A stretch of DNA of 64,000 bases. Origin: Halobacteriovorax sp. HLS (lineage in GTDB: Bacteria > Bdellovibrionota > Bacteriovoracia > Bacteriovoracales > Bacteriovoracaceae). Of the stretch, positions 26,033-33,529 are shown one piece after another. The DNA is taken from assembly GCF_004006665.1 (NCBI RefSeq), contig NZ_QOCL01000009.1, positions 434,001-498,000 on the forward strand, read 5' to 3'. Position numbers and translations under genes: made by a program. Position 1 is the stretch's first letter; the number at the start of each line of letters is the position of its first letter. The notes under the pieces are model-generated. The model ran no database searches. It saw only the letters and a list, made by a program, of their open reading frames with translations, and had not been told where the DNA came from.

Positions 26033-27580
26033 ATGAAAAAACTACTTATACTTATATCACTATTATCTTTTAATACTCATGCCTCCGAAGAAGCTGCTGA
26101 AGCTTTAGGTGAGAGGCTATTCAATGATTTTCGCTTCTCTGCTTACTTTGCAAAGGTTTCTAAGGGCAATGTTAATCATGAATTGAAGAAGGGCTCTCCT
26201 GCAGTTGAAGTTATTGACACTTTAATTGGTCAGACCACTTCACCTTTTATGGGAAAGGCAACGAGTTGTTCTAGTTGCCATATGGTTGATCAGGGTCTTG
26301 AGATAGAAGGGCTTGGAATGCGTGGTTATAATGACGCCGCCAAGAGAACTCCTATTTGGTTTAGAGCAAAAGATCAGAAAACGACAACTCTAAGAAATAC
26401 TCCAGCTTTAATTGGAATTAACTCTAAGTACCTTCCTCATTCATTCGTACATTTTGATGGAGAGTTAGATGGTATTAAATCGACAGTACTAGGGAACTTT
26501 ACTGGTCGTAATATGGGTTGGCTTGCTTTTGAAAAAGAAGAGGCCCTTAAAAATGTTATAAGAGTATTAAAAGAAGATAATGGTGAAGGTGAACTTGCAA
26601 GCGAGTTCGGTGGTAGTTATAGAAAAATTTTAAAGGGAACTGATCCTTCTATTGAAGACGATTTTAGACTCTCAGCTGAATACCGCCTTGACTTAGATAC
26701 TGCTACTGATGAGGAAATTCTTAAAAAAGTAGAGGAGTATGTTTTTATTTATGTTAAAAATATTGATTTCTCTACTGATGAAGAAGGTAATTATAACGGT
26801 AGTGCCTATGATTTCTTCTTAAAAGAAAATGGTATTCCTACTGGACCTAGTAAGAATCAAAGTGTTGGATCTTATACTTCTGGGCTAAGAAGAGCGATTG
26901 CGAAATTAGATAAGCCTCGCTATATAGAAGCATTCTCATTAGATACACACGGACGTAAAACACAATTTAAAAAAGAAGAGCTTGATGGTCTAAAAATATT
27001 CTTAAACTTAAAGAATAATAGTAGATCAATGTGTCTTCAGTGTCACATGCCACCTTTATTTAGTGATGGTCTTTATCATAATGTAGGTGTGTCGCAAAAT
27101 GAATATGAAAACATTCATGGAAAGGGAAGCCTTTTAGCAAAGAAGATACCTTCACTTAAAGAGAAGGAAGCATCTAAGATTACTTTTTTAGATATTCCAA
27201 ATGTTAAAGATGATAATAAGGTTGATTTTGGAGCGTGGAACTTCTTCTCAAGCTCTAAGCAATCAAATTTTAGTAATTATATGCGTTCACTCTTTTGCTC
27301 TAGTCCAGCGAATTGTGACGATGAAGAAATTTCTTCTCGTATGGTTGGAAGAATCAAAACTCCAACTTTGAGAAACTTAGGACATTCTGCACCTTACTTT
27401 CATAATGGTAGTGAAAAGGATATTCTAGGGGTTTTAAAAGTATATAAGCGTAACTCTGAACTTGTAAGAAATAGAGAACTTGTAAATCCTGCACCTCAAT
27501 TAGGTCGCATGAATTTAAAGGATAGTGACTTAAAGAATTTAGAAAAATTCATTAAATCACTTGATGAAGAATACGAGTAG
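26033..27580 (+). CDS. Di-haem cytochrome c peroxidase family protein
   Basis: This 515-residue periplasmic protein has a signal peptide (MKKLLILISLLSFNTHAS) and two haem c sites, C79SSCH83 and C334LQCH338. It also has the peroxidase-family C-terminal block TPTLRNLGHSAPYFHNGSEKDILGVL and an N-terminal TLRNTPALIG repeat. It is longer than classical CcpA (about 330 residues) because of an insert between the haems. It reduces hydrogen peroxide with electrons from cytochromes, or in the MauG branch modifies proteins. The promoter lies against the start codon. A separate lipoxygenase-like operon follows. Confidence 0.9.
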   Translation: MKKLLILISLLSFNTHASEEAAEALGERLFNDFRFSAYFAKVSKGNVNHELKKGSPAVEVIDTLIGQTTSPFMGKATSCSSCHMVDQGLEIEGLGMRGYNDAAKRTPIWFRAKDQKTTTLRNTPALIGINSKYLPHSFVHFDGELDGIKSTVLGNFTGRNMGWLAFEKEEALKNVIRVLKEDNGEGELASEFGGSYRKILKGTDPSIEDDFRLSAEYRLDLDTATDEEILKKVEEYVFIYVKNIDFSTDEEGNYNGSAYDFFLKENGIPTGPSKNQSVGSYTSGLRRAIAKLDKPRYIEAFSLDTHGRKTQFKKEELDGLKIFLNLKNNSRSMCLQCHMPPLFSDGLYHNVGVSQNEYENIHGKGSLLAKKIPSLKEKEASKITFLDIPNVKDDNKVDFGAWNFFSSSKQSNFSNYMRSLFCSSPANCDDEEISSRMVGRIKTPTLRNLGHSAPYFHNGSEKDILGVLKVYKRNSELVRNRELVNPAPQLGRMNLKDSDLKNLEKFIKSLDEEYE

Positions 27581-27619
27581 TTTTATAGAATATCAGTGTT
27601 AATAATCCAATGAATCTGG

Positions 27620-27652
27620 CATAATTATCCTAAACTTTTAAGGATAATTATG
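27620..27652 (+). promoter_or_regulatory. Inverted repeat occluding ribosome-binding site and start codon
   Basis: CATAATTATCCT (27620-27631), a nine-base loop and AGGATAATTATG (27641-27652) pair perfectly over 12 bases. The right arm contains both the AGGA ribosome-binding site and the ATG of the lipoxygenase-like gene. As RNA this would hide the start. As DNA, the left half CATAAT could be a -10 element, in which case the palindrome would be an operator instead. Confidence 0.6.
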
Positions 27653-29113
27653 AAAATCAGAGAGAGAATTAAATCCCTAGTAAATAGTAGAACTTCTGGT
27701 GAGCATCAGTATCACCAGAATGACTTTATGTATTCAAGAAAAGGCCCTTGGCCTCAGCCGTCTCCTGTTCATCCATGGGGAGAGAGTCCTGCTGTCGTTC
27801 ATGTTCCATTTAGAGAAGTTGTTGATTGGTGGATATGGATCGGTTCTAGGTATGTAGCAACACTAGGTCTTTCGCCTTATTACTTGTTAAAAGGTTTTCT
27901 TTTTCCAGGCCTGAAAGAAGTCAGCGATGAAAAGTTTCAAGATCTCTTAAATTATTCGATGATGAGTAAATTTTTAACTGATCAGCTTGACCAAGCAGAT
28001 CGAGATATATTTAAAGATTACCTTGGAGAAGATCGCCAATGGTTTATTGTTGATTTACAAGCGGTTGAGGTTGTTGAAACATTTGAAGGTATTTACGTAA
28101 GTGCAACAAAAACGCTTTTATATAAAGAAGATGATAAATTTATTGTTCGTTGTATATATGTAGATAAAACAACTACTATTTTTGAAAGTACAGATGGGGA
28201 TGCTTGGGAACTTGCTAAGTACTTCGTTCTTCAAGGAGGTGCTCTTTGTGCAACTCTAGTCGTTCACCCGCTTCTTCATTTTCCATTTGATAGTATAAAT
28301 GCAATTTCTAAAACTTCTCTGCCAAAAGACCATGTGCTCTTTAGGTTATTAAGTCCTCATTTTCGTTTTACGTTGCCACTTGAAAATGCAGTACTAAATT
28401 ATAAATCATCATTACTACAAGAAAAGTGGTATATGACTTACGCTCCTTATCCTGGAGGACCTGCTGGCCTTAGAGACTTACTTGTTGAAGGTTATAAGGG
28501 AATAAAAGATAATTTATCCTATCCACCTTTTTCATATAGTTTAACTTCTCCTAAAATTGAAGGTAAGTACGGTGTCTATCTCGCAAAGTATTACGACGTA
28601 TTCTACTCCTATGTTTCGGAAGTTCTTAAAGATGTGGAGAAGAATGATTTTTGGATCTCAAAATGGGCAGATTATTGCCATAAGCACGTCGTTGACTTTC
28701 CAAACGGAGAGAAGATTTGGGAAGGGGATACCCTCATTCGGGCCGTAACAACATATTTGTTTACTGTGACTGTAGCACATTCGACTGATCACTATAATTA
28801 CGGCCAAATTAATAAGCGTGAAGTTCCATTGAGAATGAGGCAAGCTCCTCCTGAAAAAGGAGTGAAAATGATTAAGAGATCGAAGTTAGTAAAACCTTGG
28901 GACCTTATGAAGTACTATATGGCGGATAACTTATTCTTTTCACCAACAACTGTCACAAGCTTGATACAGGCACGATATAATTTTAAAGAGGCCCACAGAG
29001 TTAACGCTGCGACTAAGTTTAAAAAAGATTTAATTCAATTAGATTCTGATTTAAAGAAGATGGGGATTGAATATATGCCTTTGAAAAAGATAGCAGCGAG
29101 TATTCAATTTTAA
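27650..29113 (+). CDS. Lipoxygenase-like protein with altered metal ligands
   Basis: The 487-residue protein shows lipoxygenase-type blocks. W186ELAKYFV matches the start of the catalytic helix. HVLFRLLSPHFRFTLPLEN matches the HPI-KLL-PHFR block. HSTDHYNYGQ (residues 377-386) resembles the late HAA-N-GQ ligand segment. On this alignment the second iron His corresponds to His206, but the first is replaced by Ala or Thr. His377 and His381 are off the usual spacing, and the terminal Ile ligand is Phe. It may be a divergent or non-catalytic relative. It overlaps a TSUP exporter gene by one base. Confidence 0.5.
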   Translation: MKIRERIKSLVNSRTSGEHQYHQNDFMYSRKGPWPQPSPVHPWGESPAVVHVPFREVVDWWIWIGSRYVATLGLSPYYLLKGFLFPGLKEVSDEKFQDLLNYSMMSKFLTDQLDQADRDIFKDYLGEDRQWFIVDLQAVEVVETFEGIYVSATKTLLYKEDDKFIVRCIYVDKTTTIFESTDGDAWELAKYFVLQGGALCATLVVHPLLHFPFDSINAISKTSLPKDHVLFRLLSPHFRFTLPLENAVLNYKSSLLQEKWYMTYAPYPGGPAGLRDLLVEGYKGIKDNLSYPPFSYSLTSPKIEGKYGVYLAKYYDVFYSYVSEVLKDVEKNDFWISKWADYCHKHVVDFPNGEKIWEGDTLIRAVTTYLFTVTVAHSTDHYNYGQINKREVPLRMRQAPPEKGVKMIKRSKLVKPWDLMKYYMADNLFFSPTTVTSLIQARYNFKEAHRVNAATKFKKDLIQLDSDLKKMGIEYMPLKKIAASIQF

Positions 29114-29862
29114 TGAATGATATTTATATTCTAAGCACTTTATTCTTTGTTGTCGCTACTATTTACTCTATTGCAGGTTTTGGTGGAGGCTCTAGTTATA
29201 TAGCGCTGCTCATTTTGTTTTCTGTTAACTATACAGTTGCACCTACGATCGCTCTAAGCTGTAACCTCATTGTGGTCACAGTTGGAACGATTAGGTTTAT
29301 TAGAAATAAGAATGTTCTTTGGAGACTAATACTTCCTTTTATTTCAAGTTCTATTCTCTTTAGCTACATTGGCGGACTACAGAGTATTTCAAAATTTTCA
29401 TTTCAATTGATATTAGCTCTTTGTTTATTCGCAGCTTCGCTGAAAATGTTACTCTTTAAAAAGAGCGCAGTTGATTTAAAATATAATACTTCACCGCCTA
29501 TCTTAGGTTCTTTATTTATTGGGGCAGTTCTAGGATTTGTTTCTGGACTGGTTGGAATTGGTGGGGGAATTTTCTTGGCTCCGATCCTCTATATGCTACG
29601 ATGGGGGAGTCCGAAAAATATTGCCTCAAGCGCTTCTGTTTTCATTTTTGTAAACTCAATCGCAGGACTGATTGGGCATTATCACAAGTTTAATGGATTT
29701 ATTGATTATAAACCATTTCTTCCACTTCTCATTGCCGTGGGACTTGGTGGTTTTATTGGAAATCATCTAACGCTCAAGAAGATTTCACCAAGACAAATTG
29801 AGCTTGTGACAGCTATTCTTGTGCTCATTGTTTCTGTTCGCATCTTTTGGAATTTATTATGA
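29113..29862 (+). CDS. TauE/SafE (TSUP) family membrane exporter
   Basis: This 249-residue inner-membrane protein has about eight transmembrane segments. The two inverted half repeats are typical of TSUP proteins: AGFGGGSSYIALLILF in the first half and GLVGIGGGIFLAPILYML in the second. Family members move sulfite, sulfoacetate or other small organosulfur anions. The ATG overlaps the previous stop by one base (TAATG), and its own stop overlaps the FNT gene by four bases (ATGA), so the three genes are translationally coupled. Confidence 0.88.
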   Translation: MNDIYILSTLFFVVATIYSIAGFGGGSSYIALLILFSVNYTVAPTIALSCNLIVVTVGTIRFIRNKNVLWRLILPFISSSILFSYIGGLQSISKFSFQLILALCLFAASLKMLLFKKSAVDLKYNTSPPILGSLFIGAVLGFVSGLVGIGGGIFLAPILYMLRWGSPKNIASSASVFIFVNSIAGLIGHYHKFNGFIDYKPFLPLLIAVGLGGFIGNHLTLKKISPRQIELVTAILVLIVSVRIFWNLL

Positions 29863-30632
29863 AGCCCGATATTCTTGATCATAAAGTTCTAGAGTCTATG
29901 TACAGTAAAAGTGAACTAGGAAATTCATATAGCTTCTTACTGGGGATTGCTTCAGGTGTATTTATTAGTACTGGAGCTTTTATTTTTGTAATGATGCTTC
30001 ACCTTGATTTCTTTTCGAGTTTGAATAGGCTCTTTGCTAGCAGTACTTTTAGTATTGGACTGATTCTTATTATTTTTAGCAAGACTCAGCTCTTTACCGG
30101 TAATAACCTTATGATTCGAAATCTACTCTCAAAGAATATTTCTGGATATATGGTTCTAAAGAACTGGACATTTGTCTATCTTGGAAATTTAATTGGTGCT
30201 TTAGGATTTGTAGTTGCCCTTTATTTTTTGTCTCCAACTGTTCTTGACGAACGTTTTATAGAGATTGCGATTCATAAGCTCTCTCTTGGTACAATTACTA
30301 CAATATATAAAGCGATTCTTTGTAATATCCTTGTTTGTATTGCAGTGGCCTTGGCCATCTTTTTTGAAAAAAAATTATTCAAAGTGATTGCTATTGTCAT
30401 TCCTATTACATTATTTGTTTTTTTGGGTTTTGAGCACTCTGTCGCAAATATGTTCTTTGTCCCGATGGGTCTTATTTTGAAAGGTGATCTTTCTAATATG
30501 CAGCTTTTACTGCTACTAAGAAATCTTAGTCTTGTGACGTTTGGCAATATCGCAGGGGGAGCTTTAGTGTCCCTATCTCTGTACTTTTTTCTTGGTGCCA
30601 AAGTAGAACGGGCCGAGGACAAAGTGCACTAG
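29859..30632 (+). CDS. Formate/nitrite transporter (FNT) family channel
   Basis: The 257-residue membrane protein has six transmembrane segments and the FNT landmarks: ISTGAFIFVMM, KTQLFTGNNLM (the FocA-type ELFTGN loop), CNILVCIAVALA, GFEHSVANMFFVP (with the central-pore His) and GNIAGGALVS. FNT channels pass formate, nitrite, hydrosulfide or lactate. The Glu of ELFTGN is Gln here. Next to a sulfite-exporter-type gene, hydrosulfide is a reasonable guess, but the substrate is unproven. I chose the ATG at 29859 (ATGA overlap). Confidence 0.88.
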   Translation: MKPDILDHKVLESMYSKSELGNSYSFLLGIASGVFISTGAFIFVMMLHLDFFSSLNRLFASSTFSIGLILIIFSKTQLFTGNNLMIRNLLSKNISGYMVLKNWTFVYLGNLIGALGFVVALYFLSPTVLDERFIEIAIHKLSLGTITTIYKAILCNILVCIAVALAIFFEKKLFKVIAIVIPITLFVFLGFEHSVANMFFVPMGLILKGDLSNMQLLLLLRNLSLVTFGNIAGGALVSLSLYFFLGAKVERAEDKVH

Positions 30633-30689
30633 ATTCAAAACGAACTAGTTCATTATATCAAATTTTCAATAACTTAGGGTCCTTAGAAG

Positions 30690-30706
30690 TTGGCACGGAT
30701 TATGCT
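30690..30706 (+). promoter_or_regulatory. Sigma-54 promoter
   Basis: TTGGCACGGATTATGCT matches the sigma-54 consensus (YTGGCACGrNNNTTGCW) at all but one constrained position. The invariant GG (30692-30693) and GC (30704-30705) are spaced by ten bases as required. It reads rightward into a 114-base stretch with no gene on that strand, just before a strongly folded segment. The expected transcription start is at about 30717. A GAACTAGTTC palindrome at 30642-30651 is a possible enhancer-binding half. Confidence 0.75.
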
Positions 30707-30716
30707 TATAAGAAAG

Positions 30717-30832
30717 CAAGCTGATTGAAAGGGATCTTCATCCCGCCTCAACTCACTTCTTTGTTTAACCATAAATTTGGTTAATATCTAAAAAATCTAA
30801 AATTTCTTTTCCTTTTAATCAGCTAAACTTTA
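30717..30832 (+). ncRNA. Putative sigma-54-dependent structured RNA
   Basis: Starting two bases after the predicted sigma-54 start, AGCTGATTGAAAGG (30719-30732) pairs with CCTTTTAATCAGCT (30811-30824) over 14 bases with a single G-U pair, closing the whole segment. Inside are GGGAT-CTTC-ATCCC (30731-30744) and TTAACCA-TAAATT-TGGTTAA (30765-30784), giving a three-way-junction shape. No open reading frame explains it. The neighbours are the FNT gene end and the convergent protease gene end. The 3' end is not a classical T-run terminator, so its length is uncertain. No known RNA family is recognised. Confidence 0.55.
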
Positions 30833-31576
30833 TTCAATTGTTCTTTCCCAATCTAAACAACTCTTAATAGCGTCTTTAAAAACTTTATTCTTTGAGATCA
30901 ATGTTCCTTGATTTGATCCTTTTGAGTCGCAGCCACCATGAGTATGGATTCCAATAATTTTATTAGTTGAATTACTAATTATTGAAGAACCAGAGTTACC
31001 ACCCATAGTATCGACTAAGTGTTCAATCGCAGATGGTTTTAACCAACGACCAATTTTTTTAATTGATCCAGAGTTCGTTTGCTGAGAAAAAGATAGGTTC
31101 GGATCGTTTTGGTCAAGTCCGTAACCTGTTATTGTCACTTTATCTCCCAAACGAATAGGAGCTTCTAGGGCCACAGAATAATAACCTTGTACATCTCCTG
31201 GATATTTTCCTGTAACCTTATTAGGAAGTAATTTGATGACGGCCCAGTCGTTACCAACTCCGTTATTCTTATATCTTAGGTAATCTTTTGAACGAAGATA
31301 GATATCTTCTTTTATTGATTCCTTTAGTCCGGTCTCATCTGAGTCAGGAACGTTGAAAGAAGCTTTTTCGAGTGCATCAACACAATGACCAGCACTAACA
31401 GCACACGAACGTCCAATCATAGTAACTGTACATCCAGCAAGTCTATTTAGGCTTGATGCCCTCGCTATTTTTCTATCATTTGATAAGGTTCTATCATCGC
31501 TATCTCCACAAATCGACTTGTCACTTGCTTGCGAGTTCAGAGAAATAAATACTATTAAAAATAGAATACTTTTCAC
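30830..31576 (-). CDS. Secreted trypsin-like serine protease
   Basis: The 248-residue protein has a signal peptide (MKSILFLIVFISLNSQAS) and a chymotrypsin-fold catalytic triad: His in SCAVSAGHCVDAL, Asp in NDWAVIKLLP and Ser in DTMGGNSGSSIIS. It is of the V8/glutamyl-endopeptidase-like branch, with IIGIHTHGGC after the nucleophile. Several cysteines could form disulphides. It is probably exported to the periplasm or outside, fitting a proteolytic, prey-digesting lifestyle. It is monocistronic; its stop codon abuts the structured RNA candidate on the other strand. Confidence 0.92.
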   Translation of the reverse strand: MKSILFLIVFISLNSQASDKSICGDSDDRTLSNDRKIARASSLNRLAGCTVTMIGRSCAVSAGHCVDALEKASFNVPDSDETGLKESIKEDIYLRSKDYLRYKNNGVGNDWAVIKLLPNKVTGKYPGDVQGYYSVALEAPIRLGDKVTITGYGLDQNDPNLSFSQQTNSGSIKKIGRWLKPSAIEHLVDTMGGNSGSSIISNSTNKIIGIHTHGGCDSKGSNQGTLISKNKVFKDAIKSCLDWERTIE

Positions 31577-31694
31577 TTTTCATCCTTGAAATTAGTTTTA
31601 AATATTATCGCTGACAATTTCATTCATCGTCAAATATTGCTAGAGATCATTTACCAATTAAGCTATTCTAGTATTATACAAAATAAGGAAAATT

Positions 31695-32150
31695 ATGAGT
31701 CTTACTATTTGGATTGATGCAGATGCTTGCCCGAAACCAGTTAAAGAAGTTGTATTTAAAAATAGCTTCAGACTCAAAGTTCCTGTCATTCTGGTTGCTA
31801 ATAGTTATATGAGCATCCCGCTAGATCCACTTATTCGTTTTATTCAAGTAGATAAGGGGGCCGATGTAGCGGATCAATATATTGTTGATAACTGTAGCCC
31901 TGGAGATCTTGTTATTACCGCCGATATTCCTCTTGCAGATTTCGTTGTTAAAAAAGAAGCTATTGCAATAAATCCTAGAGGTGAAGAATATACTGAGGAC
32001 AATATTAGCGAGAGGCTTTCAATGAGAAATTTCATGCAAGACTTACGCGATAGTGGGATGGATACTGGTGGCCCTGCTCCGTATGGACCCAAGGACAAAG
32101 AAATGTTTACTAATGCCTTAAATCGGCTACTTACAAAATTGTTAAAATAA
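31695..32150 (+). CDS. yaiI: YaiI/YqxD family (UPF0178, DUF188) protein
   Basis: This 151-residue protein matches the UPF0178 family from end to end: IWIDADACPKPVKEVV, VKGADVADQYIV-like DKGADVADQYIVDNCSPGDLVITADIPLA, AINPRGEEYTEDNISERLSMR and the closing GGPAPYGPKDKEMFTNALNRLL. The aspartates lie in a PIN-like nuclease fold, but no activity is established for the family. AAGGAAAATT precedes the ATG. It is a single gene between the protease and the RNA helicase. Confidence 0.94.
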   Translation: MSLTIWIDADACPKPVKEVVFKNSFRLKVPVILVANSYMSIPLDPLIRFIQVDKGADVADQYIVDNCSPGDLVITADIPLADFVVKKEAIAINPRGEEYTEDNISERLSMRNFMQDLRDSGMDTGGPAPYGPKDKEMFTNALNRLLTKLLK

Positions 32151-32233
32151 CAGGTTTTTTCTATTTCATTGACTTTCATCCCAGTATTGTAGATAAACAT
32201 ATCTACATCTGAGCATATTATTTAACTTTAGAA

Positions 32234-32262
32234 AAATCACTGATGCTTGGATTAAGTGATTT
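32234..32262 (+). promoter_or_regulatory. Inverted repeat in the helicase leader
   Basis: AAATCACT (32234-32241) and AGTGATTT (32255-32262) pair perfectly with a 13-base loop, 20 bases before the helicase ATG. Leaders of DEAD-box helicase genes are often structured for cold or autoregulatory control, so this hairpin may be regulatory. A terminator function is less likely because the tract after it is TCTCTT. Confidence 0.35.
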
Positions 32263-32281
32263 CTCTTACAGAAGGAATAAT

Positions 32282-33529
32282 ATGTCTGATTTCAGTTCAT
32301 TGAACTTACACCCATCTATTTTAAGTGCACTTACAAAGAAAGGTTATACAACACCAACGCCTATACAGGCCCAAGCAATTCCTCATGTTATTGAAGGAAG
32401 AGATATTCTTGGTATTGCCCAAACTGGGACAGGGAAGACTGCTGCTTTTTCTTTGCCAATTATTCATAGAATGGCAATTGCGAAAGTTAAGATTAAACCA
32501 GCAAGAGTTCAGTGTTTAATACTCACGCCAACCCGTGAGCTTGCTCAGCAAATTGAAGATAATATTTCTACCTACGCTAAACAACTAAAGATCTCTAGTA
32601 AGGCAATTTTTGGAGGTGTAGGTTACAGACCTCAGGTTCAGGCCATGAGTAAAGGTCTCAACTTTTTAGTAGCAACTCCTGGTCGTTTGTTAGATCTAAT
32701 GGATGATGGGCATGTTCTTTTTGAGCAATTAGAATATTTTATCTTGGATGAAGCAGATAGAATGCTTGATATGGGTTTTCTAAGAGATGTTAAAAAAGTT
32801 ATTAAGAATCTACCACCTAAGAAACAAACACTTCTTTTTTCGGCAACTATGCCAAAAGATATTGCAGCACTATCAAAGGAGCTATTGCATGACCCAATTC
32901 GTGTAGAAGTTACTCCTGAATCATCGACTGTTGAGAAGATCTCTCAATCAGTTTGCATGGTTGAAAAATCTAATAAGCCTCTTCTTTTGAAAAGTATTTT
33001 AGATGACAAAGAAATTAAAAGTGTTCTTGTTTTTACAAGAACTAAGCATGGTGCAGACAGAGTTGTAAAACACCTTGATCGAAATGGTGTTACAGCTGCC
33101 GCTATTCATGGGAATAAGTCTCAAGGTGCACGAGAAAGAGCACTTAACGGATTTAGAGCGCAGAAATTAAGAGTGCTGGTAGCTACAGATATTGCTGCCA
33201 GAGGAATAGATGTTAATCATGTCTCTCATGTCATTAATTACCACCTTCCAGATGATCCTAAGAGTTATGTACATAGAATAGGTCGTACTGCGAGAGCAGG
33301 TAGAGAAGGTAGAGCTATTTCTTTCTGTGATAATGACGAATTAAAATTGCTTAAAGGAATCGAAAAAACGATTCAGACTAAATTATTTGTGGATACGGAG
33401 CATGAATATCACGGAGTAGCGCCACATATATCTAAGCAGGTTCAAAACAAACCTAAGACAAAGCATATTCATAATCAAAAAAAGAAAGTTCAAAAAAAGA
33501 AAATGCAAAGTAGAAATGTTAAAAGGTAG
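32282..33529 (+). CDS. DEAD-box RNA helicase, RhlE-like
   Basis: The 415-residue helicase has a Q motif (TPTPIQAQAIP), motif I AQTGTGKTA, Ia PTRELAQQ, TPGR, II DEAD, III SAT, then VFTRTKHGAD, ATDIAARGID and VI HRIGRTARAG. A short Lys-rich tail follows, as in RhlE-type enzymes. It remodels RNA in ribosome assembly, decay or cold adaptation. I chose the ATG at 32282 because AAGGA lies seven bases upstream; the 13 extra residues of the longer frame are unlike the family. Confidence 0.93.
   Translation: MSDFSSLNLHPSILSALTKKGYTTPTPIQAQAIPHVIEGRDILGIAQTGTGKTAAFSLPIIHRMAIAKVKIKPARVQCLILTPTRELAQQIEDNISTYAKQLKISSKAIFGGVGYRPQVQAMSKGLNFLVATPGRLLDLMDDGHVLFEQLEYFILDEADRMLDMGFLRDVKKVIKNLPPKKQTLLFSATMPKDIAALSKELLHDPIRVEVTPESSTVEKISQSVCMVEKSNKPLLLKSILDDKEIKSVLVFTRTKHGADRVVKHLDRNGVTAAAIHGNKSQGARERALNGFRAQKLRVLVATDIAARGIDVNHVSHVINYHLPDDPKSYVHRIGRTARAGREGRAISFCDNDELKLLKGIEKTIQTKLFVDTEHEYHGVAPHISKQVQNKPKTKHIHNQKKKVQKKKMQSRNVKR

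Follow-up and report, generated by a model that had tools for sequence, protein, structure and literature searches.

Positions 30690-30832 of the window, as we call the whole 64-kb stretch of Halobacteriovorax sp. HLS DNA that was analysed (G000:C9:434001-498000, from a genome that is 99.98% complete), almost certainly hold a real gene for a structured RNA driven by sigma-54. Judged from sequence, this RNA belongs to an RNA family that had not been catalogued and that is shared within the Halobacteriovorax/Bacteriovorax lineage; the evidence for this family, and for its transcription unit, is strong. We observed a conserved promoter, an enhancer motif, a covarying structure, the strand of the RNA, the absence of an ORF and independence from the neighbouring genes. 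A first-pass annotation had proposed a dedicated regulatory RNA at this place, and the conserved promoter, its spacing and the covarying fold support that proposal; the expression of the RNA, the identity of its activator and its targets are inferred.

Locus and promoter

The element is flanked on one side by a formate/nitrite transporter gene, which is encoded on the + strand like the RNA and ends at 30632, and on the other by a convergent gene for a trypsin-like protease, which ends at 30830. The stretch had been described as gene-free, and no + strand ORF of at least 20 aa overlaps 30633-30830. No tRNA or tmRNA was found at the element, and a retron msr-msd RNA was rejected, as none of the seven ORFs scanned (26033-33529) contains a Pfam reverse transcriptase. 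Upstream of the transporter genes, ORF 27650-29113 gives a weak match to the Pfam lipoxygenase family (29.4 bits, E 4e-7); lipoxygenases are uncommon in bacteria.

The sigma-54 promoter TTGGCAC-N6-TGC (30690-30705, + strand) consists of a -24 element, TTGGCAC, at 30690-30696 and a -12 element, TGC, at 30703-30705, and it places the predicted +1 at about 30717. It had been called near-perfect, and it does differ from TGGCAC-N5-TTGC by a single mismatch; the genome has an RpoN gene. Taken alone, the promoter is weak evidence, and a chance reading, a random fold beside a random promoter-like sequence, could appeal to the fact that the number of sites with at most two mismatches in the window, 20, is about what shuffles lead one to expect (19). 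However, exact TTGGC-N8-TGCTT sites number 21 in the whole genome versus 0 for a reversed-pattern control, and promoter and fold are conserved together at non-syntenic loci; the promoter is therefore more than a chance occurrence. With the conservation, the covariation and the recurrence of the promoter described below, the chance reading can be practically dismissed.

Most of the exact sigma-54 sites of this genome (L144-L155, L161, L162 and L164) lie 1-80 nt 5' of ORFs. The beginnings of these ORFs look signal-peptide-like or secreted-like when judged by eye, and the leaders are often very short (1-40 nt).

Predicted structure

The transcript is predicted to be a small structured RNA of ~110-116 nt on the + strand (30717-30832), the exact 3' end of which is not fixed; no intrinsic terminator was found in the window stretch. 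The fold had been proposed together with a comparison against shuffled sequences, and that comparison bears it out: the energy of 30717-30832 is -26.4 kcal/mol, versus -11.3 ± 2.8 for the shuffles (z = -5.3), and 0 of 200 shuffles were as good.

The predicted 14-bp closing stem, P1, is formed by a 5' arm AGCTGATTGAAAGG at 30719-30732, the last two bases of which are common to P2, and a 3' arm CCTTTTAATCAGCT at 30811-30824; the arms are 93% complementary and have 78 nt between them. Both inner hairpins of the annotation are likewise found in the sequence, P2 (GGGAT-CTTC-ATCCC) at 30731-30744 and P3 (TTAACCA-TAAATT-TGGTTAA) at 30765-30784. In the single-sequence minimum-energy fold P1 is extended to 16 bp and P2 is displaced; the homologues instead favour a P1 of ~12 bp together with P2. 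Between P2 and P3 runs a C-rich, G-poor single strand, GCCTCAACTCACTTCTTTG (30745-30763), which is a candidate seed with inferred function. The candidate seed strand of the window RNA reads CCUCAACUCACUUCU, and its counterpart in the relatives is the CCUACC strands. The second single strand, TATCTAAAAAATCTAAAATTTCTTTT (30785-30810), is G-free; within it AATCTAAAATTTC is conserved in genomes G002 and G074, and TCTAAAA is enriched in the family.

Homologues and extent of the family

When 59 relatives were searched by BLASTN, the sole convincing match was in G002, a genome of the same genus, the others being short and mostly A/T-rich. The G002 copy, which lies in a different gene neighbourhood, has 79% identity over the whole span that begins with the -24 element and ends with the closing stem. 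A covariance model (R1) founded on the window and G002 RNAs, with the promoter left out, was then used on 129 genomes and gave eight new members at E <= 1e-4, in G074, G078 (two), G080 (two), G012, G149 and G102; all eight have TTGGC-N8-TGCT at a nearly constant distance before P1. Three weaker matches at E 0.03-0.08 (L075-L077) were inspected and rejected, being without the promoter. A second promoter-free model (R2) added seven members, six of them with the promoter; in the remaining one, from G021, it is at best decayed. The promoter-free models thus bring the family to 17 members, and 14 of the 15 found beyond the two founders, without knowledge of the promoter, have a sigma-54 promoter at the same spacing. 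The earlier argument that the coincidence of promoter and fold speaks for a dedicated RNA is upheld by this result.

A third model (R3), which includes the promoter, was searched in 129 genomes of 48 genera; the contribution of the promoter makes its count soft. Full-length matches (at least 140 nt, E <= 1e-5; counted from the listing) occur in ~60 of the 129 genomes and 22 of the 48 genera. Short matches (below ~100 nt, e.g. G000:C9:392853 and G270:C29) are sigma-54-like promoters 5' of protein genes and not RNAs, and among the R3 matches listed only short ones fall outside this bacterial family, the best being the one at G270:C29. Three weak full-length matches that were inspected (L171, L173 and L174) are other kinds of unit. 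A pattern match in IMG/VR (L143) was rejected as a chance match inside a phage gene.

Covariation and the RNA strand

To assess covariation, 16 members were aligned with MAFFT by sequence only, and 25 pairs were modelled in the alignment. Changes on both sides of the pair occur in 22 of the 25, versus a mean of 13.4 in shuffles, and 0 of 500 shuffles reached as high. The 22 comprise 11 of 12 pairs in P1, all eight modelled pairs in P3 and three of five in P2. P1 is 92% paired (91.6% before rounding) and P3 89%, whereas only 64% of the cells of P2 are paired, and P2 is conserved in only part of the family. A shift of the partners by one to three columns reduces the pairing from 85% to 30-49%, and RNAalifold recovered P1 and P3 unaided from another MAFFT alignment. 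The test named in advance for the closing stem, its preservation by compensatory changes at homologous loci, has thus been passed. P1 and P3 contain 33 G-U pairs versus 10 A-C mismatches, an excess that supports the + strand as the strand of the RNA.

The non-syntenic positions of the members, and an inverted repeat with 78 nt between its arms, would also suit a small mobile element (a MITE or its relic), in which the stem is the terminal inverted repeat and the promoter a coincidence. Yet the window's RNA type is present in a single copy in its own genome, its arms diverge through compensatory changes with a bias to G-U and not A-C, conservation of the repeat extends to the promoter and enhancer outside it, and the phage and plasmid collections hold no match to the element. 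We consider this explanation scarcely credible.

Candidate upstream activator motif

The regions upstream of 17 members were searched for palindromes by Gibbs sampling, with 332 sets taken from the flanks as controls. The search yielded sites resembling GG-N-CAAATTTG-N-CC at -70 to -141, with an information content of 10.9 versus 8.37 ± 0.26 in the controls (largest control, 9.29). When each member was scored with a matrix built from the others, site density was 19-fold that of the flanks (17.6 versus 0.94 per kb); the sites listed were, however, a product of the Gibbs run, and the comparison of information content is thus the cleaner control. The CA-N3-TG core is present in 15 of the 17 members, at a density of 16.4 versus 3.7 per kb, and its commonest position is -96 to -102. 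In the window, the candidate site for an activator (enhancer-binding protein) is GGACAAAGTGCACT at 30617-30630, which has its core at -97 and overlaps the last transporter codons, and among the exact sigma-54 sites of the genome the window RNA scores best for this motif. Upstream activator-binding sites are therefore indicated by a motif well above controls; binding is inferred from this motif.

In qrr1 of V. fischeri, the LuxO site TTGCAWWWTGCAA and the SypG site TTCTCANNNTG both contain the CA-N3-TG core and lie at comparable distances (PMC10162802). The shared core is a resemblance at the level of sequence and not a proof of a LuxO homologue. Between the activator site and the promoter, at ~-57 to -41, the homologue alignment reveals a conserved A/T-rich block, AAATTTTCAATAACTTA (ATTTTCAATAACTTA; 30660-30676); of the 10 homologues aligned, most have an ATTTCA/ACTTA-like block in the corresponding position.

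Gene context

The loci of the members are mostly non-syntenic. Seven members share one locus type, with lexA-like and HExxH lipoprotein genes (named from reading the sequences), and most of these seven loci also have a dinB gene and a uridine-kinase-like gene; the remaining members, that of the window included, are at other loci, where the downstream genes are mostly unrelated. On the one hand, the element could be taken for the 5' leader or riboswitch of the gene that follows it, as the next gene is codirectional in most members, starting ~50-330 nt from the start of the RNA, and the HExxH lipoprotein gene family follows in the seven. On the other hand, four members (the window, G102a, G102b and G021) are followed by a convergent gene, the mostly unrelated genes at the other loci do not fit a leader, and in G149b an intrinsic terminator, seen in the sequence after the RNA, separates it from the gene. 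The convergent genes and the G149b terminator indicate a free-standing gene and not a leader. A cis-leader or riboswitch would call for a conserved codirectional downstream gene, which the family as a whole does not have, and we regard this reading as very improbable.

Mode of action

Taken as a whole, we lean slightly towards an activator-controlled, Hfq-independent, trans-acting sRNA, with G-poor, C-rich strands that pair with mRNAs according to a Qrr-like logic; the expression, activator and targets in this picture are inferred. Judging from the motif, an NtrC-type activator on the palindrome near -100 would drive the sigma-54 polymerase when its signal is on. The transcript would then fold, and P1 might seal both ends and so protect the RNA without Hfq, for which one profile search found no match in the nearly complete genome (control genomes were positive). 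P3 would have an exposed single strand on each side, both G-poor and one also C-rich, and these strands are supposed to pair in trans with G-rich, Shine-Dalgarno-like parts of mRNAs, most simply ribosome-binding regions. The signal of the activator could in this manner be turned into fast post-transcriptional control, as with Qrr.

For pairing in trans as the mode of action, we put the chances at even. The unpaired parts of the family contain 5% G, versus 22% in the stems, and are C-rich, and CCTACC occurs 14 times in the family versus 0.6 expected. CCUACC repeats stand at the same place in most relatives, and several members, such as G016 and G102b, have two to three of them. Strongly C-over-G unpaired strands resemble the sites of C-preferring proteins; these repeats and the lack of a detected Hfq could therefore also mean that it is a protein, and not mRNAs, that the RNA binds by its repeated strands rich in C and free of G, as a decoy or sponge or as a Rho-type target. 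This is the main rival and remains possible, albeit unlikely. The copies of the window and G002 are without CCTACC, and the exact 15-nt strand CCTCAACTCACTTCT that is common to both looks more like a seed that is kept by pairing. Because the C-rich strand of the window, CCTCAACTCACTTC, differs from the CCTACC of the other genera, a common target is not demonstrated. Since the transcription unit of this conserved RNA is defined, and candidates exist for both its activator site and its seed, direct tests of the controlling signal and of the targets are possible.

Related sigma-54 units

At G000:C12:165313 (+ strand; L158:1501-1685), the window's genome encodes a second structured RNA that is driven by sigma-54 but is of another type; this type is also among the R3 matches. 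The RNA is apparently pseudoknotted, GGUUGG/CCAACC being interleaved with GGCCUUGAUC/GAUCAAGGCC; the long helix covaries and the short helix is nearly invariant. Relatives of this type are present in G001, G003, G004 and other genera. The R3 matches further contain related sigma-54 RNA units in tandem, ~320-350 bp apart and with a separate promoter for each copy (L128:2205-2685, L125:7477-7979, L127:7452-7959 and L129:6129-6609). A second pseudoknot is conceivable in genus g24, where the bases of the P3 loop (AAAACC, AACC) seem able to pair with those of the 3' tail (GGUUUU, GGUU). In a different sigma-54 unit, found at L171 and L173 (G088:C8 and G110:C108), the promoter is followed by GTGTGTGTG as the start, then by a short hairpin and finally by a strong intrinsic terminator; the unit measures ~100-120 nt in all and looks like another small RNA.

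The window, pseudoknotted and tandem types might form a lineage-wide superfamily of multi-copy, Hfq-independent sigma-54 RNAs, with a common kind of promoter, C-rich strands and a LuxO/SypG-like activator, which controls the Bacteriovorax-like predator lifestyle and would be an RNA circuit with an origin separate from that of Vibrio Qrr. We put this forward tentatively, as a conjecture that is rather doubtful at present.

Comparison with known systems

The annotation knew of no matching RNA family, and Rfam indeed gives no match for the window and 20 homologue loci at the gathering threshold, a relaxed scan also being empty. The closing stem and the large internal single-stranded region recall 6S RNA (RF00013). 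However, the element does not match RF00013; the sole 6S match of the genome, a canonical one of 61 bits, lies elsewhere (G000:C2:50409-50602), and identity with 6S is rejected on this ground. In B. bacteriovorus, eight attack-phase sRNAs were reported without homology outside that species, among them merRNA, which contains a c-di-GMP riboswitch (PMC3627812). They resemble the element in being non-coding and in coming from a predator within the same phylum, but the element, unlike merRNA, has no match to that riboswitch. In the literature searched, sRNAs are reported for Bdellovibrio and none were found for Bacteriovoracaceae, and there is no report of sigma-54 sRNAs in Bdellovibrio, Bacteriovorax or Halobacteriovorax.

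Enhancer-dependent transcription of a regulatory RNA by sigma-54 is also the case for GlmY, with GlrR, and for CrcZ/CrcY, with CbrB; the element differs from them in architecture and in its single strands, and has no Rfam match. By analogy, the closest working system would be Qrr of the Vibrionaceae, controlled by LuxO and in V. fischeri also by SypG: a free-standing sRNA of similar size with a sigma-54 promoter, sometimes in more than one copy per genome, and with upstream activator sites at comparable distances that have the CA-N3-TG core (PMC10162802). On the other hand, the element comes from a different phylum and bears no sequence resemblance to Qrr, its 5' and 3' ends are paired in one long stem, and the window is without a canonical terminator. 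As there is no Rfam match and no Hfq was detected in the genome, membership in Qrr is rejected. The RNA family is new, whereas its functional kind is known; should the proposed mechanism be true, the element would be a counterpart to the Qrr circuit that apparently works without Hfq.
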